From contig CACYSG010000022.1 of NCBI GenBank assembly GCA_902776955.1, forward strand, positions 1 through 51,864: a stretch of 51,864 nt of DNA, given 5' to 3'. The stretch is from an uncultured Bacteroidales bacterium. Lineage in GTDB: Bacteria; Bacteroidota; Bacteroidia; Bacteroidales; Muribaculaceae. The notes below the pieces were generated by a model. The model ran no database searches. It saw only the letters and a program-made list of their open reading frames with translations, and was not told the DNA's origin. Position numbers and translations under genes: made by a program. Shown piece by piece: positions 958 to 18,145 of the stretch. Position 1 is the first letter of the stretch. The number at the start of each line of letters is the position of its first letter.

Positions 958-985
958 TGGAGTAATTCCAAGATTGTATCCGAAG

Positions 986-1025: not shown

Positions 1026-1066
1026 TATCAACTAACAATATATCAACAATTTAAAGAACAAGAAAA

Positions 1067-2659: not shown

Positions 2660-2665
2660 TGAGAT

Positions 2666-3968: not shown

Positions 3969-3969
3969 A

Positions 3970-4206: not shown

Positions 4207-4213
4207 ACGCATT

Positions 4214-4417
4214 ATGATTTTTACAGAAGAAGATCGACTGAGAGAATTACGACTGGCACAGAGGGATATCTACAATGCCGGTAATGATCTCGTAAGTGCC
4301 GGACTAAGACTCCAAGGCACTAAGTATGAAAAGAGCTATGAACGGTTGTATAAGGCACTCAATGCTCTCAACCGAAGGCTCATCAGTGAAATCAACAAAA
4401 ACAAAAGGAGGAAATGA
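4214..4417 (+). CDS. Small helical basic protein, unknown
   Basis: 67 residues, almost entirely helix-forming, with a heptad-like middle (RLAQRDIYNAGNDL, YERLYKALNALNRRL) and a KNKRRK tail. Its stop overlaps the start of the next gene in an ATGA junction at 4414-4417. No family recognised. Confidence 0.55.
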   Translation: MIFTEEDRLRELRLAQRDIYNAGNDLVSAGLRLQGTKYEKSYERLYKALNALNRRLISEINKNKRRK

Positions 4418-4806
4418 TTATGGACGAAGATTATAGCAGAGAGATTGCTGGTTATATCCTCAGCATCTTCAGAACTAATCCTTTTGTCGTAATGAGCTGG
4501 GGAATAAATCCGGCTATCATTACAATCGTTGAAGTCGGGGTAAAGATGCATGTCCAAGGTTTTCTTCATACCGGCTATGTTCAAATTCAGCTCAATGAAG
4601 GAGAAGATCTTTTTGAAGTAACGCTCATTTCCGAAGAGGGCGAGACTTTGAAAACGATTGAACACATCTTCGTTGATAACCTGATATGTGTGATTGACTC
4701 GGTTGTAGAGAAATGTGAGAATTATAGTGAACGCATATCTCAAGAATACGGCATTACTACAGAGTCGAGTTTATGTGAGAACGATACCAGCCAAACCACT
4801 CCTTGA
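4414..4806 (+). CDS. Conserved-looking mobile-element protein, unknown
   Basis: 130 residues. The start is set by a strong AGGAGG (4406-4411) and the ATGA overlap with the preceding gene; a second ATG at 4420 is possible. The protein is a mixed alpha/beta domain (SWGINPAIITIVEVGVKMHVQGFLHTGYVQIQL) with an acidic, Ser/Thr-rich tail. No family recognised. A terminator at 4831-4876 closes the gene set that began at 1067. Confidence 0.6.
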   Translation: MIMDEDYSREIAGYILSIFRTNPFVVMSWGINPAIITIVEVGVKMHVQGFLHTGYVQIQLNEGEDLFEVTLISEEGETLKTIEHIFVDNLICVIDSVVEKCENYSERISQEYGITTESSLCENDTSQTTP

Positions 4807-4830
4807 GACCGGTTGATGTGTTCAAATAAT

Positions 4831-4876
4831 GGGTGTGTTCAAAAAAGTCTGTAAGGGCCAATGAATACACCCTTTT
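4831..4876 (+). terminator. Terminator closing the 1067-4806 gene set
   Basis: GGGTGTGTTC (4831-4840) pairs with GAATACACCC (4863-4872, one G-U), followed by TTTT. Confidence 0.7.
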
Positions 4877-4904
4877 CGTGTAACCAATTTTATCAAAGAT
4901 TTAT

Positions 4905-5552
4905 ATGATGACACAACCAACCAAGAGGGCCGTGATCTATGCCCGAGTGAGTTCTGAAAACGACAGACAGGACACATCACGACAAATCACAGACCTTCAA
5001 AAATTCAGTGAAGCCCAGGATATGGAAATCGTGAAAATCTACGAGGAGCATATATCAGGGGCGAAGAAAAATGAGGAAAGACAAGTGTTGACCGAGTGCT
5101 TGGACTATTGCACCGTGAACAATGTCGATTACTTGTTGCTATCTGAACTGAGCCGACTGGGAAGATCGACGCTGCAAGTTTTGAAATCCCTTGAACGGCT
5201 ACATGAGGCTAAGGTTTCAGTCTATATACAGAACCTTGGTATCTACTCGCTTCAACCCAATGGAGAAGTCAATCCTATCGCGTCCATTCTCATCACCGTT
5301 TTAGCTGAGATGGGCAATATTGAACGGAGTAATATCCAATACAGGCTTAACTCCGGAAGGGTCCAATATGTGATGAACGGTGGAAAACTCGGACGCAAAA
5401 CCGGGAGCATCAAGAGCGAGGATAAAAAGAAAGAGGAGTACAAGGAGGTTATATCGCTGCTGAAACGGGGTTATTCGATCAGAAATACAGCGAAACTTAC
5501 CGGCTGCTCGATATCAACAGTACAAAGAATCAAAAACCAATTTGTAAGATGA
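4905..5552 (+). CDS. Serine site-specific recombinase (resolvase/invertase family)
   Basis: 215 residues, the usual length of a small serine recombinase. The N-terminal catalytic domain shows YARVSSEND with the nucleophilic Ser16, then LLLSELSRLGRS, which carries the conserved Arg residues, and the helix E region ILAEMGNIERSNIQYRLNSGR. The C-terminal 45 residues contain GRKTGS and a helix-turn-helix (GYSIRNTAKLTGCSISTVQRI) typical of Hin-type DNA binding. It would cut and rejoin DNA at short dimeric sites: resolution of cointegrates or inversion. ATG at 4905 and 4908 are both possible starts. Its stop overlaps the start of the 5549 gene. No obvious inverted sites were recognised next to it. 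Confidence 0.93.
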   Translation: MMTQPTKRAVIYARVSSENDRQDTSRQITDLQKFSEAQDMEIVKIYEEHISGAKKNEERQVLTECLDYCTVNNVDYLLLSELSRLGRSTLQVLKSLERLHEAKVSVYIQNLGIYSLQPNGEVNPIASILITVLAEMGNIERSNIQYRLNSGRVQYVMNGGKLGRKTGSIKSEDKKKEEYKEVISLLKRGYSIRNTAKLTGCSISTVQRIKNQFVR

Positions 5553-5770
5553 AAAAGACAATCATTGAACTGCTTTTAGAATGGTGGGCAAGAACCTCTA
5601 CCACCAGAATGCCTATACCCACGATCTATACCTATGACGTGGAAGTAGATGGCAGGATAATCCAAATCGAAAGTATGAGCAAGAGTCGGATGTATGTACA
5701 CTATAAGGCGAGACGGAAATATCCCAAAGCCAAGTACATCCGGGTAGTGAAACAGACAAGACAATATTGA
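5549..5770 (+). CDS. Small basic protein coupled to the recombinase
   Basis: 73 residues, start overlapping the recombinase stop in an ATGA junction, which implies translational coupling. It has a beta-rich core (IYTYDVEVDGRIIQIESM) and a strongly basic tail (HYKARRKYPKAKYIRVVK). Possible DNA-binding accessory factor; no family recognised. Confidence 0.55.
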   Translation: MKKTIIELLLEWWARTSTTRMPIPTIYTYDVEVDGRIIQIESMSKSRMYVHYKARRKYPKAKYIRVVKQTRQY

Positions 5771-5801
5771 CTTTATTCAAGTGGTGTAAATATGTTTTTA
5801 G

Positions 5802-5832
5802 AGAAAAACGGCATTATCAAAGCCGTTTTTCT
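5802..5832 (+). terminator. Terminator of the recombinase operon
   Basis: Perfect 11-bp stem: AGAAAAACGGC (5802-5812) with GCCGTTTTTCT (5822-5832); the right arm supplies the T-run. Confidence 0.8.
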
Positions 5833-5870
5833 TTTGGTTCCGATATTACCATAAAAAGGTGTTTACCTAA

Positions 5871-6038
5871 GCTAGACACACCTTTGCTACCCTACTGCTT
5901 AACTTAGGTGTGGATATGGTATCAGTCAGCAAGATTCTAGGTCATACAGATAGCCGAATTACTGAAGGAATCTATGCCAAAATGCTTCCAGAAACAATCT
6001 TCAACAAGGTTCATGAAATCAAGGACAATTTGGTCTAG
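5871..6038 (+). pseudogene. C-terminal fragment of a tyrosine recombinase (integrase)
   Basis: Immediately after an in-frame TAA, 55 codons read ARHTFATLLLNLG..., LGHTDSRITEGIYAKM and end at TAG. These are catalytic box II of tyrosine recombinases: the Arg and His of ARHTF, the His of LGHTD, and the Tyr nucleophile in IYAKM. The first 250 or so residues, including box I, are absent. It is a remnant of an integrase whose 5' part was lost when the recombinase block or the downstream defence gene was acquired. It cannot encode an active enzyme. Confidence 0.85.
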
Positions 6039-6058
6039 TAGAGGTTATCCAGCATAGT

Positions 6059-6084
6059 AAAGGGAAGGCTTCAACCGTCCCTTT
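6059..6084. terminator. Bidirectional hairpin between integrase remnant and AbiGi gene
   Basis: AAAGGGA (6059-6065) pairs with TCCCTTT (6078-6084). It lies 8 bp beyond the stop of the minus-strand AbiGi gene and could terminate both strands. Confidence 0.5.
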
Positions 6085-6091
6085 ATTGTCT

Positions 6092-6940
6092 CTAATAGTC
6101 CATTTTAATTCTTTCAAAAGAACTTATTTTTGATATTAATATGGCTTTTTCAGCGTCATCTAAAACATGTTCACCTATCGCTTTTAATCCATTAATTCCT
6201 TCAATAATATCTGGGATCTCACTTTCATTAAATACTATAATATGATTAATATCTGATGGCTCAAAAACGAGTGCTTCAGCCTTCATTTTTTGGGTTGGTT
6301 CAGGTTTTTTTCTCACCTTAACTAATTTGCCAGTTTTTTTGCTAATGTAGTTATTTTGTCCTCGCCACTTCAAATATTCTTCTTCACCCTGTAACCACTT
6401 AACACCATTAATAGCATCATCTTCAATTATATATCTCCACTCATTCTCATTATAGTTAATATACCCTTTTTGATAATCATCACCATAATAATTCTTCAAG
6501 AAGCCCAATGCATACATATTAGCATCATTTCTTTGTAATGATTTAAAGAATTTATCAAAATTAAAAGCAAGTCCTTTAATCGTTAAGAGTTCAGTTACTG
6601 ATTTATTTATCTCTCTCATTTCTTCATCACGAAATGCTGCCCCGATTATAATTCTTTCATTACTAACATATTGTACGGGATTGCAACCCTTTTTAATACC
6701 CCATTGTTTACTAAAGGCTATCGCATACTTGCCATATCTTTCTAAAAACAAATCTGCCATTGTAATTGGAATATCACAAAGACAAACCTCAGGTATCCCA
6801 AATTTGAAATCAGGATAACTATCAGAACTTAAATCCTCAAGACTATAATTGGGATATAAAGCACCTGTTTTTAGTATTTCTAGGATTGTTTTGATTCTCT
6901 TTGTATAATGAAAGAGAGAACTTGTTCTATAATTAGCCAT
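6092..6940 (-). CDS. AbiGi-family abortive infection protein
   Basis: 282 residues. Motifs match the family annotated as abortive-infection AbiGi: LFHYTK at 9-14 followed by ILEILKTGALYPNYS, CLCDIP at 53-58, YGKYAIAFSKQWG at 69-81, and NPVQYV at 87-92. The opening FHYT...IL..G pattern also recalls ADP-ribosyltransferase-like folds such as DarT; that is inference. In Lactococcus AbiG is a two-gene system (AbiGi/AbiGii); no AbiGii partner is visible here, so this copy is an orphan. It has its own canonical promoter at 7093-7122 and a leader of about 145 nt. The gene is clearly more AT-rich than its neighbours and sits between a broken integrase and a decayed gene, which points to horizontal acquisition. 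Expected role: phage defence. Confidence 0.8.
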   Translation of the reverse strand: MANYRTSSLFHYTKRIKTILEILKTGALYPNYSLEDLSSDSYPDFKFGIPEVCLCDIPITMADLFLERYGKYAIAFSKQWGIKKGCNPVQYVSNERIIIGAAFRDEEMREINKSVTELLTIKGLAFNFDKFFKSLQRNDANMYALGFLKNYYGDDYQKGYINYNENEWRYIIEDDAINGVKWLQGEEEYLKWRGQNNYISKKTGKLVKVRKKPEPTQKMKAEALVFEPSDINHIIVFNESEIPDIIEGINGLKAIGEHVLDDAEKAILISKISSFERIKMDY

Positions 6941-7092
6941 ATCAATAACTATAACATAATCAGTTAAGGATTTAGCATTCTTTCAGTGGAAAGGGAAGGA
7001 TTCGTATCACTTCTCTTAACTTGCTATATGTAAACCCTTTAACTTGGTTTCCAATTTTATCCAGTCGCAAATTGAAACATCAAATTGCACCG

Positions 7093-7122
7093 CAAAGATA
7101 AGTCCACTTCAGGGATTTGCAA
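7093..7122 (-). promoter_or_regulatory. Promoter of the AbiGi gene
   Basis: On the minus strand TTG (7122-7120), 19 nt, TATCTTTG (7100-7093): an exact match to the Bacteroidota -33/-7 consensus. It leaves an untranslated leader of about 145 nt before the ATG at 6940. Confidence 0.75.
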
Positions 7123-7365
7123 AAGGATTTGTGTTGAAGAATACGGAATGGAAGTGATTTTTCATGGGAACTCACCCCATTGGCATATCCCCATAGTTGA
7201 GTAGGGGACAAAAGATAATAGCCTTTCAGGTCTGTTGGAGCAAAAAAAAGTTGATTTATTTGGTGGTTCCAGGTATTACGGCTACTTTTGTCCCTACAAC
7301 AATAATGTTTTTTTGTGACTGCCTAATGAAGTAGAATTACAGGAGTAAGTCGCTTCCATCAACTA
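7123..7365. other. Gene-free AT-rich stretch
   Basis: No open frame, repeat or convincing hairpin was recognised. It lies between the AbiGi promoter and the decayed gene and is probably debris of earlier insertions. Confidence 0.4.
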
Positions 7366-7518
7366 GTGTATAAGTATAAAAGTTCTTGGAAAAAGGGTAG
7401 TTATTTCAAGCTTGACGACTATTACGATACAGATTTTGCTGAATACGGAGGCTGACTTGGTAATGATGATTCTAAAGAAGAAGCTGTGTCTCATGTATTC
7501 CTGATTCCTATAATATAA
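7366..7518 (+). pseudogene. Decayed coding fragment, unknown family
   Basis: After a TAG, one frame reads VYKYKSSWKKGSYFKL, then DDYYDTDFAEYGG, meets a TGA at 7453, and continues LGNDDSKEEAVSHVFL to TAA at 7516. The composition looks coding on both sides of the stop, and TGA for a Trp codon (TGG) would restore it. It ends 14 bp before the TPR gene. Interpreted as the 3' end of a degenerated gene; no family recognised. Confidence 0.45.
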
Positions 7519-7531
7519 CCTAAAACGAAAT

Positions 7532-8341
7532 ATGATTGAAGACATGAATGATATTGATAATCAATTGAAGCAAGCTAGGGCCCTTGATAAGCAGGGCTAT
7601 AAATATCTTGCTGAAAAGGATTTTGATGGAGCAATTATGTCTTTTTATAAAGCGCTTCAGATTCGTCAAAATATCTTCGGCGAAGATTATGAACACTTGT
7701 CTTTATCGTATAGAAATCTTCGAAGAGTGTTTTATCAATTAGACAACAAGCAAATACTTATTGACATTCAGTTAAAGTGCGTTGACTTATTGATAAAAGA
7801 ATATGGTGAGGAGTATAGGCTTTTAGTATACTACTATAAAGATATTGGTTCTCTTTATCTGAGTATAGAGAACTACCAAATGTCGTTAGAGTATTATCGT
7901 AAAGCTCTATTTCTTAATATAGAGATGTATGGGATTTTAAATCGCCTTACGGCCGACCTCTACAGCGAAATTGGGCGTCTATATTCATGTGAACAGCTGA
8001 AGGATTTTGATGAATCAATAAAAGCGTTCATGAAAGCGCACTCAATTTATAAAGAATTACTAGGAGAGGAAGATCATCAAACTGTAGAAAGAAGAAATGA
8101 AATAATTAAGATTATCGAACTTTATATACGCGATCATAAAGAGTATTTTGCTGAATTGATAAGTGTATTTATTAAAGCTCATTCTCTTTATGAAAGACTA
8201 CTTGGAACAAATAATGATTTAACGGCACAAATAAGAAAACAAACGAATAAGATAATTGATATAGCTAAAAAACACAAATCATCGCCTGATCTTCTCCGAA
8301 TTCACAGGAGCAGACGTCGCTCGATTGGGAAAAGGCAATGA
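7532..8341 (+). CDS. Tetratricopeptide repeat protein
   Basis: 269 residues forming at least three kinesin-light-chain-like TPR units: GYKYLAEKDFDGAIMSFYKA, then LLVYYYKDIGSLYLSIENYQ leading to SLEYYRKALFL, then LYSEIGRLYSCEQLKDFDES leading to a helix with AHSIYKELLG. TPRs are protein-binding scaffolds. There is no signal peptide, so it is cytoplasmic. The last 20 residues (from SSPDLL to SIGKRQ) are Arg-rich and read through DNA that looks coding in another frame (see 8265-8426), so the natural C-terminus may have been lost at an insertion junction near 8275. Low GC like the AbiGi gene. Partner unknown. Confidence 0.75.
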   Translation: MIEDMNDIDNQLKQARALDKQGYKYLAEKDFDGAIMSFYKALQIRQNIFGEDYEHLSLSYRNLRRVFYQLDNKQILIDIQLKCVDLLIKEYGEEYRLLVYYYKDIGSLYLSIENYQMSLEYYRKALFLNIEMYGILNRLTADLYSEIGRLYSCEQLKDFDESIKAFMKAHSIYKELLGEEDHQTVERRNEIIKIIELYIRDHKEYFAELISVFIKAHSLYERLLGTNNDLTAQIRKQTNKIIDIAKKHKSSPDLLRIHRSRRRSIGKRQ

Positions 8342-8426
8342 AAAAGTTCATCATTATTTTTTCAAAAACCACAAAATGCAAATGACTGGACAAGATCACG
8401 GTAATGAAGAAAGTCATATTTCTTGA
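8265..8426 (+). pseudogene. Tail of an interrupted gene overlapping TPR and HAD genes
   Basis: Following a TAG at 8262, one frame stays open to TGA at 8424 and reads HRLIFSEFTGADVARLGKGN, then EKVHHYFFKNHKMQMTGQDH, then GNEESHIS. It looks like the genuine C-terminus of a protein, overlaps the HAD start by 23 bp as coupled genes do, and has no start codon of its own in a suitable place. I read it as the 3' end of a gene whose 5' part was replaced by the TPR-containing insertion. Confidence 0.4.
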
Positions 8427-8910
8427 TATTGACGGAGTGTTGAATACTGAACGGCAGCACGACCGTTGCGTGGAGGATGGAATTTCTCCTGTAGACGGAT
8501 TCGGTTTTGCCTTTGACCCCGAAGCTGTCGCCAACCTCAAAAGTATTGTGGAGAATACAGGTGCCGACATCGTGATTTCCTCGTCATGGAAACTTTGGGG
8601 ACTCGATGCCATGCAACGGATGTGGACCCGAAGAGACCTGCCTGGCGAGGTCATTGATATCACCCCCAACACCGAGAGCGATGAGATGCTATTGAGCATT
8701 GATCTCGACTATATGGATATTCCAGCTATAAAAGGCCGCGAAATCAAGGAATGGCTTACAACCGATGGCTATGAAGTGACTCACTACGCCATCCTCGACG
8801 ACCTGCCCGACATGCTCCCCGAGCAGGAGTCTCATTTTGTTCAAACAGATCCAAGAATCGGCATCACCAAAGAAGATGCTAACCAAGTCATTGAGATATT
8901 GACAAAATGA
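8404..8910 (+). CDS. HAD-superfamily hydrolase (HAD_SAK-like)
   Basis: 168 residues. HAD motif I is FLDIDGVLN (Asp8, Asp10), motif II is SSSW at 59-62 with Lys63, and motif III/IV is AILDDLPD with Asp132/133; VQTDPRIGIT follows. The layout matches the short HAD proteins grouped as HAD_SAK (HAD domain of the 'Swiss army knife' RNA-repair set), which have a small cap. Expected activity is phosphate-ester hydrolysis; the substrate cannot be read from the sequence. It begins 62 bp after the TPR stop and overlaps the tail of an interrupted gene. Confidence 0.8.
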   Translation: MKKVIFLDIDGVLNTERQHDRCVEDGISPVDGFGFAFDPEAVANLKSIVENTGADIVISSSWKLWGLDAMQRMWTRRDLPGEVIDITPNTESDEMLLSIDLDYMDIPAIKGREIKEWLTTDGYEVTHYAILDDLPDMLPEQESHFVQTDPRIGITKEDANQVIEILTK

Positions 8911-8958
8911 TCTGAAGCCAGTTTTCTCACACCAGAAGAAACACACATCAACTAGTTA

Positions 8959-9567
8959 TCAATCAAACATTACCGCTTTTACGCGGGACAAGGCTTCGCG
9001 GCATCGTTGACGGAACTGAAGAATATTGCTATGCATGAAATTGCCACAATTCAGTCCCCATACATCTATCCCTTGTTCACAAGCCATATAAATGAAACGC
9101 TCATTGTGGAACCGCTGCGAAACCACAATGTAAGGTTGTCCTCCAGTGAATTCGGCTGCATGTTTCGCCGACTCAAGTGTATGGGAGCCGTTGAAGTCCA
9201 GTGATATTACTTCTGCAGGAACACCTTCTGTAATAAGCGTGTCGGCCATCCATCGAGGTTCGTTATAATCCACACTAGCACTGTCCCCTGTAATGTATAT
9301 ACGTTTGATCTTTCCTGCTCGATAGAGGTCAAGGATTCCATTGATGCGTGGTCTGAAATACGGGTTAACGTCAGTATAACGCCCTCTAATGCTCGTACCC
9401 AGCAGAACCCCGGTTTCACACTCTGGCAATGAATCAATACTCTCAAAGCAACGATCGGCCGAAGCACTGACAACCTTAGTATCGCAAACATATATTATGC
9501 CCGCTATGGCTATAACGGACAACAAAATGAGCCCACTTACTATTTTTTTCGTTCTAGTTATCTTCAT
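8959..9567 (-). CDS. SanA/YdcF-like (DUF218) membrane protein
   Basis: 202 residues: one N-terminal membrane anchor (about 9-27) followed by a periplasmic DUF218 domain. Family motifs are present: VLLGTS (54-59), NPYFRPR, IYITGDS (90-96), YNEP (101-104), Asp124, and SQRFHNER (150-157). E. coli SanA and relatives affect envelope permeability and vancomycin resistance at high temperature; the reaction is not established, though a lipid-linked or sugar-phosphate substrate is proposed for the family. It has a TATCTTTG -7 box at 9588-9595. It is the length expected for the family. Confidence 0.85.
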   Translation of the reverse strand: MKITRTKKIVSGLILLSVIAIAGIIYVCDTKVVSASADRCFESIDSLPECETGVLLGTSIRGRYTDVNPYFRPRINGILDLYRAGKIKRIYITGDSASVDYNEPRWMADTLITEGVPAEVISLDFNGSHTLESAKHAAEFTGGQPYIVVSQRFHNERFIYMACEQGIDVWGLNCGNFMHSNILQFRQRCREALSRVKAVMFD

Positions 9568-9587
9568 CGTTTAAAAGAAATATACTG

Positions 9588-9595
9588 CAAAGATA
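9588..9595 (-). promoter_or_regulatory. -7 box of the SanA-like gene
   Basis: TATCTTTG on the minus strand, 20 bp ahead of the ATG at 9567. No TTG is found at the expected -33 distance, so support is from the -7 box and position only. Confidence 0.45.
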
Positions 9596-9688
9596 ATGAA
9601 TATTAGAGTAAATAACTAGTTGTTGTAATAGCTAAAATTTCCTCCGCCTCAAATCCCCCAGCTGCCTTATAAATAACTAAAGAGAATT

Positions 9689-9931
9689 ACGCCCCATTTT
9701 GGACCGCCGGCTTTAACAGAAGAGACATGCCGGCGGATGTTAGGGGCGACAACAATATAATGATGGAGAAGGACCCGTTATGTGAAGAGCAAACGGGAAA
9801 ACCACCATCAGGACGCTATTATCTTGTTGGGGAGACCAGGCCTTAAGTTGCCACAGTCAAGCTAATGAGAGAGTCCGATCGAAGTGTGATATCAATGCTG
9901 GAGAAGTGTTGATGTCGCTCTTCTTTTTTTT
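9689..9931 (+). ncRNA. Candidate structured RNA with terminator
   Basis: A gene-free stretch folds into consecutive nested helices on the + strand. P1 CGCCCC (9690-9695)/GGGGCG (9743-9748) encloses P2 CCGCCGGC (9704-9711)/GCCGGCGG (9729-9736). P3 TGATGG (9761-9766)/CCATCA (9805-9810) encloses P4 CCCGTT (9774-9779)/AACGGG (9792-9797). P5 GGAC (9811-9814)/GTCC (9873-9876) encloses P6 (9818-9826/9858-9866, eight of nine pairs). A last 12-bp stem (9888-9899/9905-9916, all pairs or G-U, loop GGAGA) is followed by a T-rich tract to 9931, so it doubles as terminator. It does not look like tmRNA, RNase P, 6S, SRP RNA or a group II intron. No protein gene lies on this strand nearby, favouring a trans-acting or element-borne RNA. 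Confidence 0.5.
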
Positions 9932-10025
9932 CGGTTCGGTAATGGGAAAAAAGAAAGGGAACAGCCATTACAGCCATTCCCCTTCAAACCTAAATTACAC
10001 TATGAACTACACTATGACTATTTCT

Positions 10026-10370
10026 TCACTCCTTTGCTTTATACATCTGTCTGAACATTTCGGTTAACCGCTTATGCAAATCATTGCGATGCTCAAGCCA
10101 GGAGTCATCAAAGCTGTAGCCCTTGTCCAATAAATAACCTTCAAAAAACAAAGCCAGATACTCACCCATCATATTCATCAGAATACTGAAAGCATTTAAT
10201 TCCTTTCCACAGTCGAACACAAGTACTCCGGCTGCGTTCTTGGTAGCATGATCCTTGAAAATGCTCTCAAGTACGTCTCTTGCAAAGTCATTGTCGCAAA
10301 AGATTTTCTGAGCTGTCATCAGTTCATCTTTAGTCCACTCTCTCTTTTCAATAAATAATGATTGAGCCAT
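10026..10370 (-). CDS. Small protein, paralogue of the 10475 gene, unknown
   Basis: 114 residues. The N-terminal half (EWTKDEL ... ARDVLESIF ... ATKNAAGVLVFD ... LNAFSILMNMM) aligns with the neighbouring gene at 10475-10753 (IWTKNDL ... ERDAVEYEF ... STKNSTGELVIE ... LNGTWLLINLQ), so the two arose by duplication. It is the last gene of the minus-strand cassette running from 14372. No known family recognised; a cytoplasmic acidic helical protein. Confidence 0.6.
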   Translation of the reverse strand: MAQSLFIEKREWTKDELMTAQKIFCDNDFARDVLESIFKDHATKNAAGVLVFDCGKELNAFSILMNMMGEYLALFFEGYLLDKGYSFDDSWLEHRNDLHKRLTEMFRQMYKAKE

Positions 10371-10410
10371 AATTTTCTACTTATTAAATAATTTGTTGTT
10401 CGAAAAATTA

Positions 10411-10433
10411 GGCCCGCCCTCTCACCACGGGTC
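10411..10433. other. GC-rich hairpin ahead of the 10026-10370 gene
   Basis: GGCCCG (10411-10416) pairs with CGGGTC (10428-10433, one G-U) in an AT-rich gap between two minus-strand genes. There is no T-run, so it is more likely an mRNA-processing or leader element than a terminator. Same type as 10796-10826 and 12421-12460. Confidence 0.45.
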
Positions 10434-10474
10434 CAGTACAAGTAATAGTTTATCTATCTCGGTTGTCTAGTCTT

Positions 10475-10753
10475 CTAAATGTAAAGGCCACCAAGCATAG
10501 CGGTTAATAACACATGGAGCTTATTATAATCCTCAAGATTCAAGCCTTTATAACCATTTTCTTGAAGATTAATCAACAACCAAGTACCATTAAGCCCCTC
10601 TTCAGACTCAATCACCAACTCGCCAGTAGAATTCTTAGTAGACATTGTTTCAAATTCGTATTCAACTGCATCTCTTTCCAATTGGTTATCAGCAATTTTC
10701 AATAAGTCATTTTTTGTCCAAATTTTCTTGTTTATTTTTTTAAACTTTCCCAT
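10475..10753 (-). CDS. Small protein, paralogue of the 10026 gene, unknown
   Basis: 92 residues with a basic N-terminus (MGKFKKINKKIW) and an acidic remainder. It shares the WTK-D/N-x-L, RD..E.F, TKN..G.LV and LN.....(I/M)N motifs with the next gene downstream, and both end in a helix with L(H)..LT.M...LY. This marks a tandem duplication within the cassette. Function unknown. Confidence 0.6.
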   Translation of the reverse strand: MGKFKKINKKIWTKNDLLKIADNQLERDAVEYEFETMSTKNSTGELVIESEEGLNGTWLLINLQENGYKGLNLEDYNKLHVLLTAMLGGLYI

Positions 10754-10795
10754 TGTTTTGTGGATTAAAGTGTTGTTCGTTTATCTTTTAAGAAT

Positions 10796-10826
10796 AGGCC
10801 CGCCGTCTTATTGCGATGACGGGCCT
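10796..10826. other. GC-rich hairpin ahead of the 10475-10753 gene
   Basis: AGGCCCG (10796-10802) pairs perfectly with CGGGCCT (10820-10826), and four further inner pairs form after one mismatch. It sits between the stop at 10847 and the next start at 10753. No T-run follows on the minus strand. Confidence 0.5.
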
Positions 10827-10846
10827 GAGAATAACTGTTCTATTAA

Positions 10847-11119
10847 TTATTTGTCATTTTTCTCTTTATCCATCGTATCATTTTCAGGATTATTGACATA
10901 GTGGATTTGAGGGTCATCGTTACCATTAATGTACTGCTGGACAAAGTCAAAAAGTGCTTCCTGCTGCTCTTCTTCACATTCAAAACCAATGTTGAACTCG
11001 TCGACCTGCTGGTCAAACAACTCCTGAAGTGCAGCAAGCTCGCCATAACTAATATCACGCTGTTCACCGTTACCTACAAAACCTGACGGTATAGCTTTAT
11101 TTATTTTTTTCTTCTCCAT
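10847..11119 (-). CDS. Small acidic protein, unknown
   Basis: 90 residues: a short basic start (MEKKKINKAIPSGFVG), then acidic helix (GELAALQELFDQQVDEF, CEEEQQEALFDFVQQYI) and an Asp/Asn-rich tail. Belongs to the minus-strand cassette by spacing and strand. No family recognised. Confidence 0.55.
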   Translation of the reverse strand: MEKKKINKAIPSGFVGNGEQRDISYGELAALQELFDQQVDEFNIGFECEEEQQEALFDFVQQYINGNDDPQIHYVNNPENDTMDKEKNDK

Positions 11120-11137
11120 TTCTATCGTTTTATTGGT

Positions 11138-11290
11138 GGCCGCTTGGCCGGTTGTTTTTATATGGTAGACACCGTATGGTGTTGCCGCTCGCTGAAGCGG
11201 GGTGACGGCTCTGGGTCGTGAGTTTATTCAGTCGTTCGGTGGTCGCATTGCTGTGGGAGGCCCTCAGCCGAGGCGGTTCATTCTATGCTT
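11138..11290. other. Cluster of four hairpins between cassette genes
   Basis: GGCC/GGCC (11138-11141/11146-11149), ACACC/GGTGT (11169-11173/11178-11182), CCGCT/AGCGG (11185-11189/11196-11200) and a CCTC/GAGG stem near 11263-11274 follow one another in a gap without genes. They lie downstream of the radical SAM gene on its transcript and upstream of the 10847 gene. A structured inter-cistronic leader is likely. Confidence 0.4.
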
Positions 11291-11292
11291 CA

Positions 11293-11991
11293 TCACATCC
11301 ATACTTGAGCATTCTCCTTCATGATGACACGGGTGAACTTCTCGATTTCGGTCCTCAGGGCAAATACCTCGTAACGGAAGGGCTCAGGTACTTTTACACG
11401 GCGGAGGGACTCTCGACCGATGAACACGAACTCAGGGTTACACTGCTCGACCATCGCTGCAAAGTTCTTGGCGCTACTGAACTTCATCAGCGGCTCCAGC
11501 GTGGTATAGGTCTTGATACCTGATGCCGCAATAGCCTGCATAGCATAGGCTCTGTCAGCGCGGGAGGGTGCAAAGCCCATATACTCCTGGCCCAACTCCA
11601 AGTCACTCTCCAGGGTGGTACCGATATAGGCATGTTCCCAAATCCCATGTTCGGTGAAGTTGAGCAGCCTCTCGGGATTCTTGCTCTGCACCCAGAAGGT
11701 GTGACGGGGATACTGGTGGCAGTAATCAAGAATACGCGTTATGTCCTGGTCGCTAAGCGCTCTGGAGCAGATGTCCGTACCTTCGCAGATGAATATAGTC
11801 TTCGGCTCCCCATAGTTGAGGTCGATATTGAAGTCTTCCTCGATAAAATGGTGCTTTGACTCGGTCGTGGAGTCACCTTTGAATCGATCCTTCCAACAGT
11901 AAGGGCAAGAGAATTCACAGCTGAATTTCCCGCCGAACAGGGAAAGGGTCCAGATGTCCCCGTACATATGGCCTGATGAATACTTCAGCAT
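11293..11991 (-). CDS. Radical SAM protein next to a ParB-like protein
   Basis: 232 residues. The iron-sulphur motif CEFSCPYCW (Cys25, Cys29, Cys32; C-x3-C-x2-C) sits near the N-terminus and is followed by a half-barrel-like pattern: IFICEGTDI, TFWVQSKNPERL, YIGTTLESD and FVFIGRES. The overall shape resembles small spore-photoproduct-lyase-like or phage Gp37/Gp68-like radical SAM proteins found in mobile elements. It would cleave SAM to start radical chemistry; the substrate is not known, but a nucleic acid is plausible given the ParB-like neighbour. The next gene (11997-12404) ends 5 bp upstream, so they are co-transcribed. Confidence 0.8.
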   Translation of the reverse strand: MLKYSSGHMYGDIWTLSLFGGKFSCEFSCPYCWKDRFKGDSTTESKHHFIEEDFNIDLNYGEPKTIFICEGTDICSRALSDQDITRILDYCHQYPRHTFWVQSKNPERLLNFTEHGIWEHAYIGTTLESDLELGQEYMGFAPSRADRAYAMQAIAASGIKTYTTLEPLMKFSSAKNFAAMVEQCNPEFVFIGRESLRRVKVPEPFRYEVFALRTEIEKFTRVIMKENAQVWM

Positions 11992-11996
11992 AGTCG

Positions 11997-12404
11997 TTAC
12001 AGTTTAAAGTAGTTAACGTCAAGTATCGTGATGGAGCCATCGTCAGATACCGTCGGGAACAAAGCTGTACCGCAACTTTCGCTCAATGCAGCGGCAAGTT
12101 CATGGACACTAATGTTGGCCTTGTTGTAGGATGCTTCGTTCAGGATTTCCAGGATTACAGTGCCGGCGGGGTGCCTCTTGATAGCGACTTCGGTCTTGAG
12201 CAATTCGTAAAGGACATATCGGTCGTCCTCGAAGTCCAGCAACCCGACGTTGAACTCGGAACTAGTGAAGCTCCGCAGCGCCTCCTTCCCGCGAGTTGAG
12301 AATCCGTCTTCCTTCGGACAGATAGTCACCATATGAGGCTTGATCTGACCCTCGCCGAAGAACGGTGTAACTGTGTTCAAAATATTACTTTCAACAATCG
12401 TCAT
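11997..12404 (-). CDS. Cassette protein between ParB-like and radical SAM genes, unknown
   Basis: 135 residues from the ATG at 12404; an in-frame ATG further upstream (12443) would run through the hairpin at 12421-12460 and is less likely. Mixed alpha/beta protein (PHMVTICPKEDGFSTRG, VAIKRHPAGTVILEIL, DDGSITILDVNYFKL). Ends 5 bp before the radical SAM gene. No family recognised. Its fixed place between the other two suggests a shared job. Confidence 0.6.
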   Translation of the reverse strand: MTIVESNILNTVTPFFGEGQIKPHMVTICPKEDGFSTRGKEALRSFTSSEFNVGLLDFEDDRYVLYELLKTEVAIKRHPAGTVILEILNEASYNKANISVHELAAALSESCGTALFPTVSDDGSITILDVNYFKL

Positions 12405-12420
12405 AATCGTTTGTTTTTTA

Positions 12421-12460
12421 AACCCCACCGCCCACCATATCATCGACAGGAGGTGGGGTT
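12421..12460. other. GC-rich hairpin ahead of the 11997-12404 gene
   Basis: AACCCCACC (12421-12429) pairs perfectly with GGTGGGGTT (12452-12460), 9 bp, in the gap between the ParB-like gene and the next start. No T-run follows on the minus strand. Confidence 0.5.
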
Positions 12461-12476
12461 AAATAAATAGCTAGGG

Positions 12477-13958
12477 TTAGAGACTATCCTTAAAGTCTTT
12501 GTATGCCTTCTTCGCTGCCTTGATGGCATCGTCCATCTTCGCCTTTTCTTTGTCCAGCTTAGCTCGGTTAGCCTTACGCTCCTTCATCTTCGTTACAACG
12601 TCGGATATGGAGCCGTGTTCATATACCTTACCAGTGCTGGATACACCAGCGGCAATGATGCTCTGGATCTTTTCGTCAATGGTCTTGAGCTGCTCATCAC
12701 TGGCGGTAGTCAGCGGGGTCTTCTTGACGAAGGCCTTGAAGTTCTTAGCGAACTCCTGAATGAAGGTACCCACGACAGCTTTGTCCGTCATATCGAGTCC
12801 CTTTTGGCTCTCCTGATTCATATAGAGCTTGAGGTGTTTGATGAAGTCGACATCGCCTTTGTTCTTGTTGTACTCCTCTTTCGCCTTGAACACCTCTATG
12901 AGCCAAGACATAGTGAGCAGTCCGTTCTTTTTACAGTCGGGATTGAGTAACCTGGTGGACTTGAAGATACCGATTCCACGATTGGCCTTTTCGTCGTCAC
13001 AAACAGGCACATTTCCCTTGAGAAGATCATTCTTCTTGACAGCGTCCTTCTCACCCGTCAGGCCATAGTCGCGGTATTTCGTGCTGGTCTTGGGGAGAAT
13101 CTTCTCAGCCTCTTGCTCCTTGACCTTCAGTTTGTCCTCAACTCCGCTAATGACTTCATTCTGGTTCCTGATAGCAATCATATCCCAGTTGGAGTCGTAG
13201 GCATTAATTACGCGGACGTATTCATTGATGTCTTCAGGTGCCGAGATGATAACGACATCAGCCTCGTACTCGAAGTCACTACCCTTAATAGCGGCCAGAC
13301 GATGTTGACCGTCGAGCACGACGAACATGAGGTCGATATCAGGATGATCGAGGGTGACTGCATTACCATCATCATCGTTGAGTTTAGCACCCAACATCAG
13401 AGCAGGCTTTGCAGGGCAAATAGTGATCGGCTCCGAGAAGCGCTTTTTGCCATCTTGCTTTAAAGCATGAATGAGTCGGTTCACATGTTTCTCATCCACC
13501 TTGCGGTTCCCCGCATATGTGAGGAGGATGATAGCTGCAGCCAACAACTTCTTCAGATCATACTTCAGAACCACCTGAGCCTCTACACCATTCTCGCTCA
13601 TGCGTGCCTTCAGATTGTCACGCACCTGCTGGTCCTCAACTTCAATCAGTTTGAGCTTTTCTGCTTTTTCTGCCTGAGCCTGCGAGTCCTGCTCAGCGGA
13701 CGTGTTCTCATCACCCTGGACAGCATTTTCGCTCTCCGTGGGTACAGCGGCATCACCTGCGTCGGTAGCTTTGGTGTTAGCCGGTACCTGCTTACTGGTA
13801 GCGTCAGCGGCTTCCTCGTCGCTGGCTTCGGTATCGTCCGGCGACAGGGGAGTAGAACCTTGGGTGGGCTCTGCTACTACGTTCTCAACTTGGGCCTTGG
13901 TCAGGTCCATTTCACCCTCAGTGGGGGCGGCAGCAAAGTTTCTAATCTCTTTTGCCAT
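12477..13958 (-). CDS. ParB/sulfiredoxin-fold DGQHR-type protein
   Basis: 493 residues. The first 95 are a low-complexity Ala/Thr/Glu region. A ParB-like core follows: YAGNRKVDEKHVNRL, SEPITICP, and VVLDGQHRLAAIKG, where DGQHR is at 216-220. This motif also marks DndB and related proteins. The C-terminal third is Lys-rich with a coiled-coil tail (MKERKANRAKLDKEKAKMDD). Such proteins bind DNA and some have nuclease or nucleotide-hydrolysing activity; here the role is open: partition, DNA protection or regulation of the element. The gene leads the cassette after the DUF3853 gene and is followed by the unknown 11997 gene and the radical SAM gene. Confidence 0.8.
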   Translation of the reverse strand: MAKEIRNFAAAPTEGEMDLTKAQVENVVAEPTQGSTPLSPDDTEASDEEAADATSKQVPANTKATDAGDAAVPTESENAVQGDENTSAEQDSQAQAEKAEKLKLIEVEDQQVRDNLKARMSENGVEAQVVLKYDLKKLLAAAIILLTYAGNRKVDEKHVNRLIHALKQDGKKRFSEPITICPAKPALMLGAKLNDDDGNAVTLDHPDIDLMFVVLDGQHRLAAIKGSDFEYEADVVIISAPEDINEYVRVINAYDSNWDMIAIRNQNEVISGVEDKLKVKEQEAEKILPKTSTKYRDYGLTGEKDAVKKNDLLKGNVPVCDDEKANRGIGIFKSTRLLNPDCKKNGLLTMSWLIEVFKAKEEYNKNKGDVDFIKHLKLYMNQESQKGLDMTDKAVVGTFIQEFAKNFKAFVKKTPLTTASDEQLKTIDEKIQSIIAAGVSSTGKVYEHGSISDVVTKMKERKANRAKLDKEKAKMDDAIKAAKKAYKDFKDSL

Positions 13959-14021
13959 AATTCAAATAATTTTAAAATGTTGATAAAAAAGTATTATTAA
14001 TAAATAATGTGGAAATGTCTC

Positions 14022-14372
14022 TTAGGCGGCTCCAGAGGGAGACTTGGGCGACTTCTTGTTATTGCCGTAGCGGACTTTGCCCTTACGCTTCTGCTGGACA
14101 TTGAGGAGGCCAAGTGCAAGATCTGCATCAATCACGATAATCTTACCCTGCTGTGAGATGGCGGGATCAAGAACACCGCTTGCTTTGATTCGACATGCAG
14201 TAGCGCGACTACAACCGAGCAGTTGCATCAGCCCGGCAATGCCATATACATAATGTTTCTTCACTTGAGGCGCGCTATCTTGTTCAATATCACGTCCCAA
14301 GCCTAAACCTTCTTGAAGAGCCTCAACGAGGTCCTCGACGGTTGCATTAATAAGGAGAGTGTCTTTTCTCAT
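14022..14372 (-). CDS. DUF3853 family DNA-binding protein (copy 2)
   Basis: 116 residues. The region GIAGLMQLLGCSRATACRIK is the same helix-turn-helix core as in the 3627-3968 protein, followed by a short region ending VIDADLALGLL. The tail is Lys/Gly/Ser-rich. It lies at the head of the minus-strand ParB/radical SAM cassette with a TACTTTTG -7 box at 14398-14405, so it may be the cassette's regulator. The presence of two members on opposite strands suggests two element modules merged here. Confidence 0.75.
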   Translation of the reverse strand: MRKDTLLINATVEDLVEALQEGLGLGRDIEQDSAPQVKKHYVYGIAGLMQLLGCSRATACRIKASGVLDPAISQQGKIIVIDADLALGLLNVQQKRKGKVRYGNNKKSPKSPSGAA

Positions 14373-14397
14373 CTCTTGAGTATTTTTGTTTTCCTTG

Positions 14398-14405
14398 CAA
14401 AAGTA
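14398..14405 (-). promoter_or_regulatory. -7 box ahead of the DUF3853 copy 2
   Basis: TACTTTTG on the minus strand, 25 bp before the ATG at 14372. No TTG at the expected -33 distance. Confidence 0.45.
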
Positions 14406-14976
14406 CTCAACAGGGGAATGTGCAGAATTTGCTAATTAACCCAATAAACGATAAACAACTTAATTACGTAAATCGTTGAAAATTTAACATTCTAATAAAC
14501 TATATCAATATTTTTTTTGTGTGGCGTAACCGGTGCAAAGCTTAGTGGCCGAAACCTTTATGGGATATTCAGTTAATTGCCGTTGAACATATACGCCAGC
14601 ATATCGTCGGGAAACGTTTAGGTCGGGCATGATGAACATAACACCTGTCTCGCCATCGGGAGACTGCAAAGGAGGTAGCCCTTCCTTCCTCGAAAGAAAT
14701 GGAATGCATCCTTCTAGTAACTTCCTTCAACGGTAGTTGCCACGGATGTGTCCGAGTTCGCTCAAAGCAAAGCTCACATGGTTTTTCACATAATCGAACT
14801 CTGTAAAGCTAAGAGCTGGCCGTATGATAATCTTTGTATCCTCACGCACATTACAAAATATCCCCCGATACCGCCCATGATGAGCCGTTCGGAGGATTAT
14901 TGCGAAGTAAAAAATAATCTATCAATTTAACAAACTGACAGTTAACTATTTCTAAGTATGCCAATCTAGTCGATGC
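14406..14976. other. Gene-poor stretch with coding-like debris on both strands
   Basis: No convincing complete gene. Around 14510-14730 the minus strand stays open for about 73 codons (a piece reads LPPLQSPDGETGVMFIMP, then DLNVSRRYAGVYVQRQL) without a start codon. The + strand has an overlapping short ORF from about 14629 (MMNITPVSPSGDCKGG). This may be the remnant of one gene; the coding strand cannot be decided by eye. Confidence 0.3.
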
Positions 14977-16779
14977 TTACTTTCTGCCTCTTCTTGAAGT
15001 GTTCTCAACATTAATGAATCCACACTCTTGGAGAATCTCAATAGCTTCTTTAAATTGCTGGTAAGAACGTTTGTTTGGATTCTTATAGTACTCTTCCAAT
15101 TCAATGTGTTTTGCTGACGGAAGATATGGATGGTTTCCGTCTTCGTCTTCAAACAGTTCTCCAAACTTGCCTAAGCCTTCGGTACCTGAGTTTCGATATG
15201 TGAAAAGACAACGGGCGATATATCCAAGCAGTCTATCCACTCCTTTCCAGCATATAGTTTGATCTTTGCTATAAAGCTCACCAAGCCCTGTGAATCGATA
15301 GAGGAATAACTCTTTATCGGTGTTATCATCAATATAATCTCTCTCAATCAGAATGCAATATAACTTTTCAAGACATTCACGACGTCTTGAGACTCTTTCT
15401 GATTCAGGACCTGGAATTTTCTTGTCATGTACTCTGATATACAAAAAATCAGTATTATTAGAATTAGCATTTTTGGTCTCATCATTTGTAGTGGTACCAC
15501 CTATTGAAACGGACTCATTAATGCCAGGTTTTTCAACAGTATCATTACTAACGGGAGCAGAGTCTTTCAAAAAATACTTTGTGGTAAAATCTTCAACAAG
15601 TTTATTGAAGATCGTATTGTAGTGAGTTCGCTCTAGCAACCAGTTAATCGTAGCTCTTCTTTCATCAGAAAGAATATCATGAACTATAGTATAGGCGGCG
15701 GCTAAATGCTCTAGCTCTATTTTAACATGACCCTTTAAAAATGATGCATCAATCTTTTGTTTTGCTAAAGAGGGATTTAATCCAGGCACCTTCCACCCCC
15801 GTTTAGCAAGAAATAGAAGAAGAGAATTATTAAGTTCCTCATCTAATTCCTTTTTTCTTTCTACGTATTCCTCATTTCTTCTTCCTGATTGAATCCATCT
15901 TGCAAAATCAATATTGTTATTATTTGAATCAAAATGAGCGAGCCAATCGTCCCCCCATCCCATAAACTTGCAATCTGAGAAGTAATGCTTATTCTGGAAC
16001 AGTTCCTTAAAGTCATCATGAACTACTTTTTGTGCTTTTTCCATTATTGCATCACGGTCCAACAATGGCCATGTTCTCATGCGGAAATTGTTTATTTTAA
16101 TAAATACAGGATCCAATAGGGTAGAATGATAACACAATGTGTGTACATAATTGTAGACTAATACAGCAAAAAATAACGGAGGATAATCTTCACGCTTGAT
16201 TATTTCAATAAAACGATGGTGACTAGTTTCGGAGAAGGCCTTTTCTCTATTAAGAAACTCAATTACGTCTGAAGGAGTGACCCCCGTGGATAAATAACTC
16301 TGAAGTCTTTGGTAATTTCGATCCTTATCGTCTATTAAAATTTCACGAATTTCAATCAGGGTTTTAGTACTAAATCCAAAAAACTCGAACCAAGAAGGTC
16401 TAAAAAGCAGCATGTTATCAGTATCAGCAATGAATTTATGAACATCTTCAAATGTTGCAAAATACTTATTTTTTATAGAATTGAAGTTCCGATTAACAGA
16501 TTCAAAAAAATGAAGAAAACCTTCAAAAATATCGTCAATAAAAGCATGCACTAGTATACGAGAGATTGGATCAAAAATGCCGTAGTGGAAAAAGACATAC
16601 TCACAAAAACACATTACATTATCATCAAGTCTATCCTTATCAGATATGATGCAAGCATTTGATCCCTTAAGCGCGTTTTTATTACGATCTTTAGGATATA
16701 ACAAACGATTAATGCCAGCTTTTATAAACGGTAGGCTTACCAGCTCCTTTTCTATAGCAGCGACAATAGATTGTTCCAT
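14977..16779 (-). CDS. 600-residue protein of unknown function
   Basis: Single long gene, AT-rich, no signal peptide or membrane segments. The N-terminal 400 residues are helical and rich in aromatic residues (VMCFCEYVFFHYGIFDP, DNMLLFRPSWFEFFGF). A Ser/Thr/Asn-rich linker follows at about 415-450, and the C-terminal 150 residues form a separate domain (ECLEKLYCILIERDYID, ICWKGVDRLLGYIARCLF, SYQQFKEAIEILQECGFI). The C-terminal pattern recalls helical domains seen in several uncharacterised Bacteroidota mobile-element proteins, loosely including RteC, but I cannot assign a family. It stands alone with a canonical promoter at 16846-16876. Its place next to a tRNA-like site suggests cargo of an integrated element. 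Confidence 0.75.
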   Translation of the reverse strand: MEQSIVAAIEKELVSLPFIKAGINRLLYPKDRNKNALKGSNACIISDKDRLDDNVMCFCEYVFFHYGIFDPISRILVHAFIDDIFEGFLHFFESVNRNFNSIKNKYFATFEDVHKFIADTDNMLLFRPSWFEFFGFSTKTLIEIREILIDDKDRNYQRLQSYLSTGVTPSDVIEFLNREKAFSETSHHRFIEIIKREDYPPLFFAVLVYNYVHTLCYHSTLLDPVFIKINNFRMRTWPLLDRDAIMEKAQKVVHDDFKELFQNKHYFSDCKFMGWGDDWLAHFDSNNNNIDFARWIQSGRRNEEYVERKKELDEELNNSLLLFLAKRGWKVPGLNPSLAKQKIDASFLKGHVKIELEHLAAAYTIVHDILSDERRATINWLLERTHYNTIFNKLVEDFTTKYFLKDSAPVSNDTVEKPGINESVSIGGTTTNDETKNANSNNTDFLYIRVHDKKIPGPESERVSRRRECLEKLYCILIERDYIDDNTDKELFLYRFTGLGELYSKDQTICWKGVDRLLGYIARCLFTYRNSGTEGLGKFGELFEDEDGNHPYLPSAKHIELEEYYKNPNKRSYQQFKEAIEILQECGFINVENTSRRGRK

Positions 16780-16845
16780 TTGTTTATTATAATTCTGAAG
16801 TTACATTAAATATGGCTTGATGATGACGAAGCGACATATTTCCCG

Positions 16846-16876
16846 CAAATGTATAGAACTTTTTTGAGGTTTGCAA
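16846..16876 (-). promoter_or_regulatory. Promoter of the 600-residue protein gene
   Basis: Minus strand: TTG (16876-16874), 20 nt, TACATTTG (16853-16846). Leader of about 60 nt before the ATG at 16779. Confidence 0.65.
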
Positions 16877-17015
16877 CAATCATTAAATTAGATTTTGTGG
16901 GCTAAATTAGTAAACTCCTGAATTTGTGAGAGGTAGAAGTATTATAAAGTATTATAGTAGTAGTGGCTAGAACGTTTTCTTGTTAAAGTTTACTAAAAAC
17001 TTTGGTAGGCCAGAA

Positions 17016-17040
17016 GGGGGACCCTTTCGGGGGACCCTTT
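17016..17040. repeat. Perfect 12-mer direct repeat near the tRNA-like gene
   Basis: GGGGGACCCTTT occurs at 17016-17027 and 17029-17040, one base apart, just beyond the T-run of the tRNA terminator and at the boundary between AT-rich and GC-rich DNA. It may be part of an element end. Confidence 0.5.
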
Positions 17041-17041
17041 G

Positions 17042-17083
17042 AAAAAAAAGAACGGAAACCCTTGCAAATTAAGGATTTCCGTT
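17042..17083 (-). terminator. Terminator of the tRNA-Ser-like gene
   Basis: Minus-strand stem: AACGGAAA (plus-strand 17051-17058) with TTTCCGTT (17076-17083), one mismatch, then CCTT/AAGG; followed by eight T on the minus strand (17049-17042). It starts 9 bp beyond the tRNA-like 3' end. Confidence 0.75.
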
Positions 17084-17092
17084 TCACGGTTG

Positions 17093-17155
17093 CGGAGAGG
17101 ACAAGATTCGAACTTGCGGTAGAGTTACCCCTACGGCAGTTTCACCCACCTCTCC
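17093..17155 (-). tRNA. tRNA-Ser-like gene lacking D arm and anticodon arm
   Basis: On the minus strand a 7-bp acceptor stem GGAGAGG (17155-17149)/CCTCTCC (17100-17094) with G discriminator, a serine-type long variable arm GTAGGG-GTAA-CTCTAC, and a normal T arm (CAAG-TTCGAAT-CTTG) are all present. Between GGTGA and AACTG about 24 nt are missing; an intact Bacteroidota tRNA-Ser has the D arm and the 5' half of the anticodon arm plus the anticodon there. AACTG fits the 3' side of a GCT anticodon stem. Total length is 63 nt instead of about 87. No CCA is encoded, as is usual in the phylum. A canonical promoter (17189-17218) and a terminator are intact. Either a recent internal deletion in a tRNA gene or a small transcribed tRNA mimic. 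As it stands it cannot decode. Confidence 0.75.
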
Positions 17156-17188
17156 GAAAGCTAGCTGAAGTATTTTCAATAGCGACTG

Positions 17189-17218
17189 CAAAGGTACTGC
17201 TTTTTTTTATACCTGCAA
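17189..17218 (-). promoter_or_regulatory. Promoter of the tRNA-Ser-like gene
   Basis: Minus strand: TTG (17218-17216), exactly 19 nt, TACCTTTG (17196-17189). Transcription would start near 17182, about 27 nt before the acceptor stem. Confidence 0.75.
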
Positions 17219-18140: not shown

Positions 18141-18145
18141 CGGCA

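Follow-up and report, generated by a model that had tools for sequence, protein, structure and literature searches.

A tRNA-Ser(GCT) gene without its anticodon beside a mobile element in a Muribaculaceae genome, and a phage-type tRNA-Ser(GCT) as its probable backup

Introduction

In tRNA-dependent lysogeny, as described by Guerrero-Bustamante and Hatfull (2024, PMC10865867), integration disrupts a host tRNA gene and the phage carries a tRNA of the same isotype. NBU1 is referred to in the same paper as a tRNA-targeting integrative element (PMC10865867). Phage tRNAs have also been described in conflicts with the host. For instance, phage tRNA-Tyr and tRNA-Lys counter retron-Eco7 (PtuAB) and PrrC (PMC11555353), and the evasion of tRNA-cleaving defences by phage tRNAs is also a topic of PMC10264068 and PMC13096335. 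Shortened serine tRNAs are described in animal mitochondria, whose tRNA-Ser(AGY) lacks the D arm (PMC4013460). A literature search, conducted mostly at the level of search listings, found no precedent for a host chromosome in which a broken tRNA-Ser is covered by a phage-type tRNA array.

The DNA analysed here, referred to as the window, is the entire 51,864-nt contig C22 of an assembly from an uncultured bacterium of the Muribaculaceae (genome G000; 123 contigs, 3.23 Mb, 89.7% complete, 1.1% contamination). We describe a tRNA-Ser(GCT) gene in the window that has lost its anticodon, its counterparts in 101 congeneric genomes, the element DNA that adjoins it, and a second tRNA-Ser(GCT) on another contig, C70, of the same assembly.

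Results

The window copy of tRNA-Ser(GCT) differs from an intact gene by one stretch of missing nucleotides (Table 1). Removal of 24 nt (nt 15–38) from the 87-nt tRNA-Ser(GCT) of the related genome G058 gives the 63-nt window copy exactly, which bears out an earlier note on this DNA, made from the letters alone, that about 24 nt are gone between GGTGA and AACTG. For a single 24-nt deletion just two equivalent placements fit, with 1 nt of identity at the junction. Alternatively, two deletions (16 + 8 nt) at the direct repeats AAAC and TGA (4 nt and 3 nt) lead to the same product. Of the D arm, the loop and the 3′ strand are deleted and the 5′ strand is left; of the anticodon arm, the 5′ stem strand and the anticodon itself are deleted, so that the remnant has no GCT in a 7-nt loop, and the 3′ half of the stem is left. 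The acceptor stem, the long variable arm and the T arm are all present. The earlier note had listed the 7-bp acceptor, the 6-bp serine-type variable arm, the T arm and the hairpin/T8 terminator correctly. Its statement that the D and anticodon arms are cleanly missing holds for the anticodon and the D loop but not for the two stem strands that remain, and its orientation is corrected here, the locus being on the minus strand. ARAGORN reports zero tRNAs in the window, and an Rfam scan of the window gives no tRNA at the gathering score; with the threshold relaxed, tRNA-Sec scores 20.1 bits, against a cut-off of 47. Because the anticodon and most of the D arm are removed, a transcript of the gene, if made, cannot decode.

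Table 1. Positions of the tRNA-Ser(GCT) remnant, its signals and the adjoining element genes in the window
Feature	Position	Strand	Remarks
tRNA-Ser(GCT) remnant, 63 nt	17093..17155	minus	24 nt missing; discriminator base included, CCA not encoded; intact 87-nt copy is G058 L039:1589-1675
Deletion junction, GGTGA/AACTG	17141..17142	minus	lacks nt 15-38 of the 87-nt tRNA; placement ambiguous by 1 nt
Acceptor stem, 5′ strand, 7 nt	17149..17155	minus	pairs with 17094-17100
Acceptor stem, 3′ strand	17094..17100	minus	
Serine-type variable arm	17119..17134	minus	6-bp stem and 4-nt loop
T arm	17102..17116	minus	CAAG-TTCGAAT-CTTG
Bacteroidota-type promoter (predicted)	17189..17218	minus	TTG (17218-17216), 19 nt, TACCTTTG (17196-17189)
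Terminator-like hairpin (13 bp) and T8 run	17042..17083	minus	nearly the same in G058 and G124
Mobile-element DNA (putative extent)	1..17091		border at the tRNA 3′ end; reaches the left end of the contig
Gene for a 600-aa protein, no Pfam match	14977..16779	minus	adjoins the tRNA; relatives (32-34% identity) at the same position in G058 and G124
DUF3853 protein gene	14022..14372	minus	conserved with the G058 and G124 elements
Small serine resolvase/invertase	4905..5552	plus	sole recombinase among ten element ORFs scanned

The signals for transcription appear to be retained. The sequence upstream of the remnant reads TTG-N19-TACCTTTG, which we take to be the Bacteroidota promoter consensus, and the TACCTTTG box also precedes the intact tRNA-Ser(GCT) in most of the relatives' copies compared. 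The leader between this −7-like box and the 5′ end of the tRNA is 33 nt long; the earlier note had recognized the promoter, and its distance of 26 bp does not hold. The predicted fold of the remnant together with the terminator beats 200 of 200 shuffles (z −5.16), the fold being mostly acceptor plus terminator. The minimum-energy fold is predicted at −28.9 kcal/mol versus −20.4 for the three-arm fold, which is not the minimum. The intact tRNA is likewise not predicted as a cloverleaf, and the fold energies therefore say little about the remnant.

A locus that keeps promoter, leader, acceptor, variable arm, T arm and terminator could be imagined to serve as a functional short RNA, a 63-nt transcript that is made, processed, tailed and perhaps serylated, and that occupies SerRS or has some other non-decoding role. 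SerRS reads the long variable arm of its tRNA rather than the anticodon. In yeast, the anticodon does not specify serylation (PMC6827378). Such a role is nevertheless very unlikely. An exact pattern allowing any deletion of 3–25 nt between two conserved blocks detected the deleted form in 1 of the 101 genomes, that of the window itself, and in no viral contig; any recent deletion would leave the rest of the gene unchanged; and the three-arm fold is not the one predicted as most stable. The same kind of pattern scan over a wider collection of genome contigs, which may omit near relatives, gave 8 stretches, none of them Bacteroidales by record title, and the sequence of one (L087) does not read as a tRNA. 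A conserved small RNA as the leading view was rejected on the count of one genome among 101 and on its absence from viral contigs, and the earlier note's small RNA that mimics the serine tRNA for SerRS finds no comparative support, since no second genome was found with the deleted form.

The intact gene was used as a query (E ≤ 1e-8) against the 101 congeneric genomes and matched 87 of them. Full-length copies, 95–100% identical, are present in 77 genomes, with two full copies in only four (G114, G039, G116 and G004) and exactly one in the single-contig genome G101. The native gene has an interior lesion in three genomes (the window's genome, G009 and G133), is cut by a contig end in six (G021, G051, G016, G136, G138 and G040) and contains Ns in G102; one of the two copies in G022 is also cut by a contig end. 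No match at this threshold was obtained in 14 of the 101, five of which are 93–98% complete. The native tRNA-Ser(GCT), with one copy in most of the genus, reads AGC and AGU. These codons are in use, amounting to 118 of the 4785 codons in nine window ORFs, and a reader for them is therefore needed.

Judged by its identical 3′ part, its promoter and its shared upstream neighbours, the window locus is a descendant of this native tRNA-Ser(GCT). Its retained 3′ part matches the gene of the relatives at 100% identity (query 42–92 of 92), and the lack of any substitution in it indicates that the loss is recent. This agrees with the recent deletion put forward in the earlier note, as does the restriction of the deleted form to a single genome. 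When the loci were compared by BLAST, the upstream neighbours of the window gene (59–73% and 74–83% identity) were found to flank the intact gene in 8 of 50 genomes. A different upstream neighbour occurs in 20 of the 50, including G009, G133 and G124, and the remaining genomes have neither within the stretch compared. Set against window positions 17361–18493, the upstream flanks of L052, L193 and others fall into at least two gene neighbourhoods (8 and 20 of 50 genomes), and the spot thus seems to have been rearranged on the upstream side too.

Shared neighbours also bear on the possibility that an intact native copy lies in a part of the genome that was not assembled. The window copy would then be superfluous or left over from attachment, and the C70 tRNA would not matter. 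A completeness of 89.7% leaves room for such a copy, and so do the 14 genomes that have no match at the threshold, five of them 93–98% complete. However, two full copies occur in just 4 of the 101 genomes, and the window copy adjoins the very neighbours that flank the intact gene in eight relatives. We consider a hidden native copy quite unlikely.

An error of the metagenome assembler, or a mixture of strains, could likewise have produced a false or minority junction. Such an error is conceivable because the tRNA is near-identical across related species. The 123 contigs of the window's genome, the contigs that end inside the native tRNA in six genomes and in one G022 copy, the Ns in G102 and the interior lesions of the same gene in two further genomes would all fit an artefact. 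Against it, the junction is exact, is 17 kb away from the nearer contig end and has flanks with no other full-length match in the assembly, and a 24-nt deletion requires reads that carry it. In addition, the genes of G009 (L052) and G133 (L135) break at the same base, after GTTCGAATCTT, yet continue into different downstream sequences, as expected of separate events. An artefact is on balance unlikely.

Comparison of the downstream flanks gives good support to the locus as a site at which mobile elements insert next to the tRNA 3′ end. The window aligns with G058 at 83% across the tRNA and about 110 nt beyond it, terminator included, and the flank that follows the tRNA in G124 is similar to both; past the tRNA, the three have related 600-aa genes and a DUF3853-type gene in common. 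Other relatives have different sequences at the same point past the tRNA. The earlier note had read the 3′ end as an attachment site, and these flanks argue for it, with a second border not found. A direct repeat of the tRNA 3′ end was searched for in the window, where only the tRNA itself matched at up to 3 mismatches and the contig ends before the other border; in the assembly, which holds no second border repeat at up to 2 mismatches; and in the examined parts of G124 and G058, where only the tRNA itself matched at up to 6 mismatches. The attachment sequence was not found in viral contigs. The 600-aa gene stays next to the tRNA in three genomes at just 32–34% identity, and its function is possibly tied to the attachment end. 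The element also encodes an AbiGi-family protein (6092–6940, minus strand), a putative abortive phage resistance antitoxin, and a HAD_SAK_2 protein (8404–8910, plus strand) of a family named for RNA repair.

The proximity of the element raises the question of its part in the lesion. Its integrase may have recombined at the wrong position within the tRNA. In favour of this, the element directly adjoins the gene, and one breakpoint falls in the anticodon loop, where tRNA integrases often cross over, as stated for mycobacteriophages (PMC10865867). However, the tRNA is intact in G058 and G124 despite their related adjoining elements, and the element alone thus does not explain the lesion. No integrase, including tyrosine integrases, was found among the ten ORFs scanned of an element that is incomplete in the assembly. 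Moreover, two slippage steps at the 4-nt and 3-nt direct repeats (16 + 8 nt) would yield the same product. An integrase error is accordingly rated as improbable, on a par with the hidden native copy.

The earlier note had proposed to look for another tRNA-Ser(GCT) gene, and one other is indeed present in the same assembly, at C70:5083-5171. It is divergent from the native gene and has an intact anticodon, a long arm and a G discriminator. The order of the array is Ser(GCT)-Tyr(GTA)-Lys(TTT), followed by a gene for a Phage_30_3 protein (T4 gp30.3; E 5.8e-40), and HxlR and cupin genes lie upstream. The Phage_30_3 protein matches NADAR below threshold, a family whose members reverse guanine ADP-ribosylation (PMC11125620), and has relatives in 1458 phage records, all at less than 60% identity. 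With several close tRNAs and a phage-type neighbour, the C70 array is by its sequence a phage-type tRNA array. An exact-pattern search of viral contigs for its source found none. Its Tyr-Lys part is 75–76% identical to phage pairs among the matches listed, and its serine tRNA is 76–84% identical to seven phage records over part or most of its length; as these matches are partial, no source phage can be assigned to the array.

The gp30.3-type gene is present in 14 of the 101 genomes. Several of its loci have flanking genes in common, and the 75 nt before the first tRNA are near-identical in G000, G133, G025 (C35) and G017, with a close match in G055. This suggests a single cassette in the chromosome. 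In the stretches read, the tRNA content of this cassette is Ser-Tyr-Lys in G000, Ser-Lys in G133, a Ser-bodied tRNA with anticodon GTT followed by Tyr-Lys in G017, and Tyr-Lys in G055. Lys stands alone in G024, G026, G036, G037, G044, G124 and G137, and no tRNA was found in G021 and G134. G025 has two loci, Ser(GCT)-Tyr on C35 and an 18-tRNA array that includes Ser(GCT) on C34. A cassette Ser(GCT) is thus present in G000, G133 and G025, and the cassette Ser bodies are of two kinds, one in G000 and G017 and the other in G133 and G025.

The serine-type tRNA of G017 (C57, L141:2163-2251) is 92% identical to the C70 tRNA-Ser(GCT). If SerRS charges this tRNA, its GTT anticodon would place serine at asparagine codons; the native tRNA-Ser(GCT) is intact in that genome. 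Large phage-like arrays were also seen in the stretches read, with 18 tRNAs in G025 C34 (L168), adjoining a gp30.3-type gene (L197), and 15 in G034 C25 (L165).

Extra Ser(GCT) genes were sought with a model (R1) whose six source sequences include the ones from G000 and G133, and the matches were confirmed by ARAGORN. They are present in eight genomes (G000, G008, G025, G034, G039, G117, G129 and G133). A full-length native gene stands beside the extra one in five of these, namely G008, G025 (at two loci), G034, G039 and G129. G133 shows the same pairing as the window's genome, a native gene broken inside and a cassette Ser(GCT) kept. An extra Ser(GCT) is therefore found in 2 of the 3 genomes with an interior lesion (G000 and G133, not G009) versus 5 of the 77 with a full-length gene (one-sided Fisher p 0.019, post hoc), a count that omits 21 genomes: the 14 without a native match (G117 among them), the six contig-end cuts and G102. 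Within the cassette genomes, the figures are 2 of 2 lesions versus 1 of 9 full-length genes. Since R1 included the G000 and G133 sequences, and G133 was inspected for its lesion, detection was not even-handed and the test is biased. The test was devised once the pattern was known and counts three lesions; the association is a hint only. In G009 (94% complete), where the native gene is truncated, no other Ser(GCT) was found, six of its nine long tRNA matches being typed. G134 and G137 (96% and 98% complete) have no R1 match at the Ser(GCT) level, which illustrates that absence from an assembly is weak evidence of absence and that missing tRNAs are not rare in drafts.

As a control, tRNA-Ser(TGA) was matched in 92 of the 101 genomes with no interior break among the matches listed, where matches at 75–80% include other serine tRNAs and the fragments in G026 and G133 lie at contig ends. 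Three copies are short by 4–8 nt at the 5′ end (G007, G021 and G049). Apparent interior breaks inside contigs were found in tRNA-Ser(CGA)-type sequence of G134 (L213) and G133 (L214). Damage to serine tRNAs is thus not confined to the GCT gene, and a special fragility of tRNA-Ser(GCT) was dropped as an idea.

Discussion

The most probable explanation is that the window holds a recent loss-of-function allele of tRNA-Ser(GCT) at an integration hot spot, tolerated through the divergent tRNA-Ser(GCT) on C70. What the sequences show is the lesion, which none of the other congeneric genomes searched contains, and an intact second tRNA-Ser(GCT) in phage-type surroundings, within a cassette whose locus relatives share. 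We infer that C70 and the window come from one cell, that the C70 tRNA is expressed and suffices for decoding, and that it was there before the lesion. The phage-type tRNA-Ser(GCT) would have been present first and would have rendered the native gene dispensable. A small deletion at the recombination-prone site would then have removed the anticodon of the native gene, while the C70 tRNA-Ser(GCT) would read AGC and AGU and the cell would survive. A transcript of the remnant may still be made, but it would be non-decoding.

As a recent pseudogene, the lesion is ordinary in itself. Its context is unusual, in that a phage-type cassette apparently stands in for an essential tRNA that hardly varies. 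A tRNA that is near-invariant in the genus and the sole reader of its codon box should not be breakable. Here it is broken in one species and truncated in two more, with a phage-type substitute in 2 of the 3, and these are natural cases for the replacement of an essential tRNA. They also bear on whether a host can come to depend on a phage tRNA cassette. The tRNA content of the cassette varies between relatives, and the replacement question is therefore testable.

A broader reading is tentative and rather doubtful. A cassette in the chromosome, made up of phage-type tRNAs and a gp30.3/NADAR-like gene, might repeatedly replace an essential host tRNA, such that at least two species keep the cassette tRNA-Ser(GCT) while the native gene decays at the hot spot and the host then depends on it for all AGC/AGU codons. 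Resistance of its tRNAs to toxins or defences that attack tRNAs might be what keeps the cassette in place, and the shortened transcript might be transitional or even a working SerRS-binding RNA.

Among the known systems, animal mitochondrial tRNA-Ser(AGY) serves the same codon box and has likewise lost the D arm. The D-armless mitochondrial tRNAs keep the anticodon arm and decode, unlike the window remnant, which is without an anticodon. As in NBU1-type elements, element DNA starts at the tRNA 3′ end and several kinds of flank occur at one spot; unlike in them, the second border and the integrase were not recovered, and the tRNA is not whole owing to the deletion.

Similarly, the C70 array resembles defence-evading phage tRNAs in holding tRNA-Tyr and tRNA-Lys, the isotypes attacked by retron-Eco7 PtuAB and PrrC. 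By analogy, this suggests the countering of defences by Tyr and Lys phage tRNAs as a reason for keeping the cassette. tRNASer is not mentioned in the text of PMC11555353 that was searched (0 hits). Unlike those phage tRNAs, the cassette here appears settled in host chromosomes and is reduced in most of the relatives that carry it.

The closest comparison is with tRNA-dependent lysogeny. Several features differ. The backup here lies on another contig, in a chromosomal-looking cassette, and not on the adjoining element as assembled; ARAGORN found no rescuing tRNA in the window, and the element may continue past the contig end. The break is an internal deletion rather than a demonstrated attachment junction. 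The tRNA is whole in two relatives that carry the element, and no integrase was seen here. Common to both are a host tRNA gene that serves as an integration target and no longer works, and a phage-type tRNA of that isotype in the same genome (PMC10865867). The window case, as far as it is assembled, fails the defining feature of a rescuing tRNA carried on the element itself, but it shares with tRNA-dependent lysogeny the logic of rescue.
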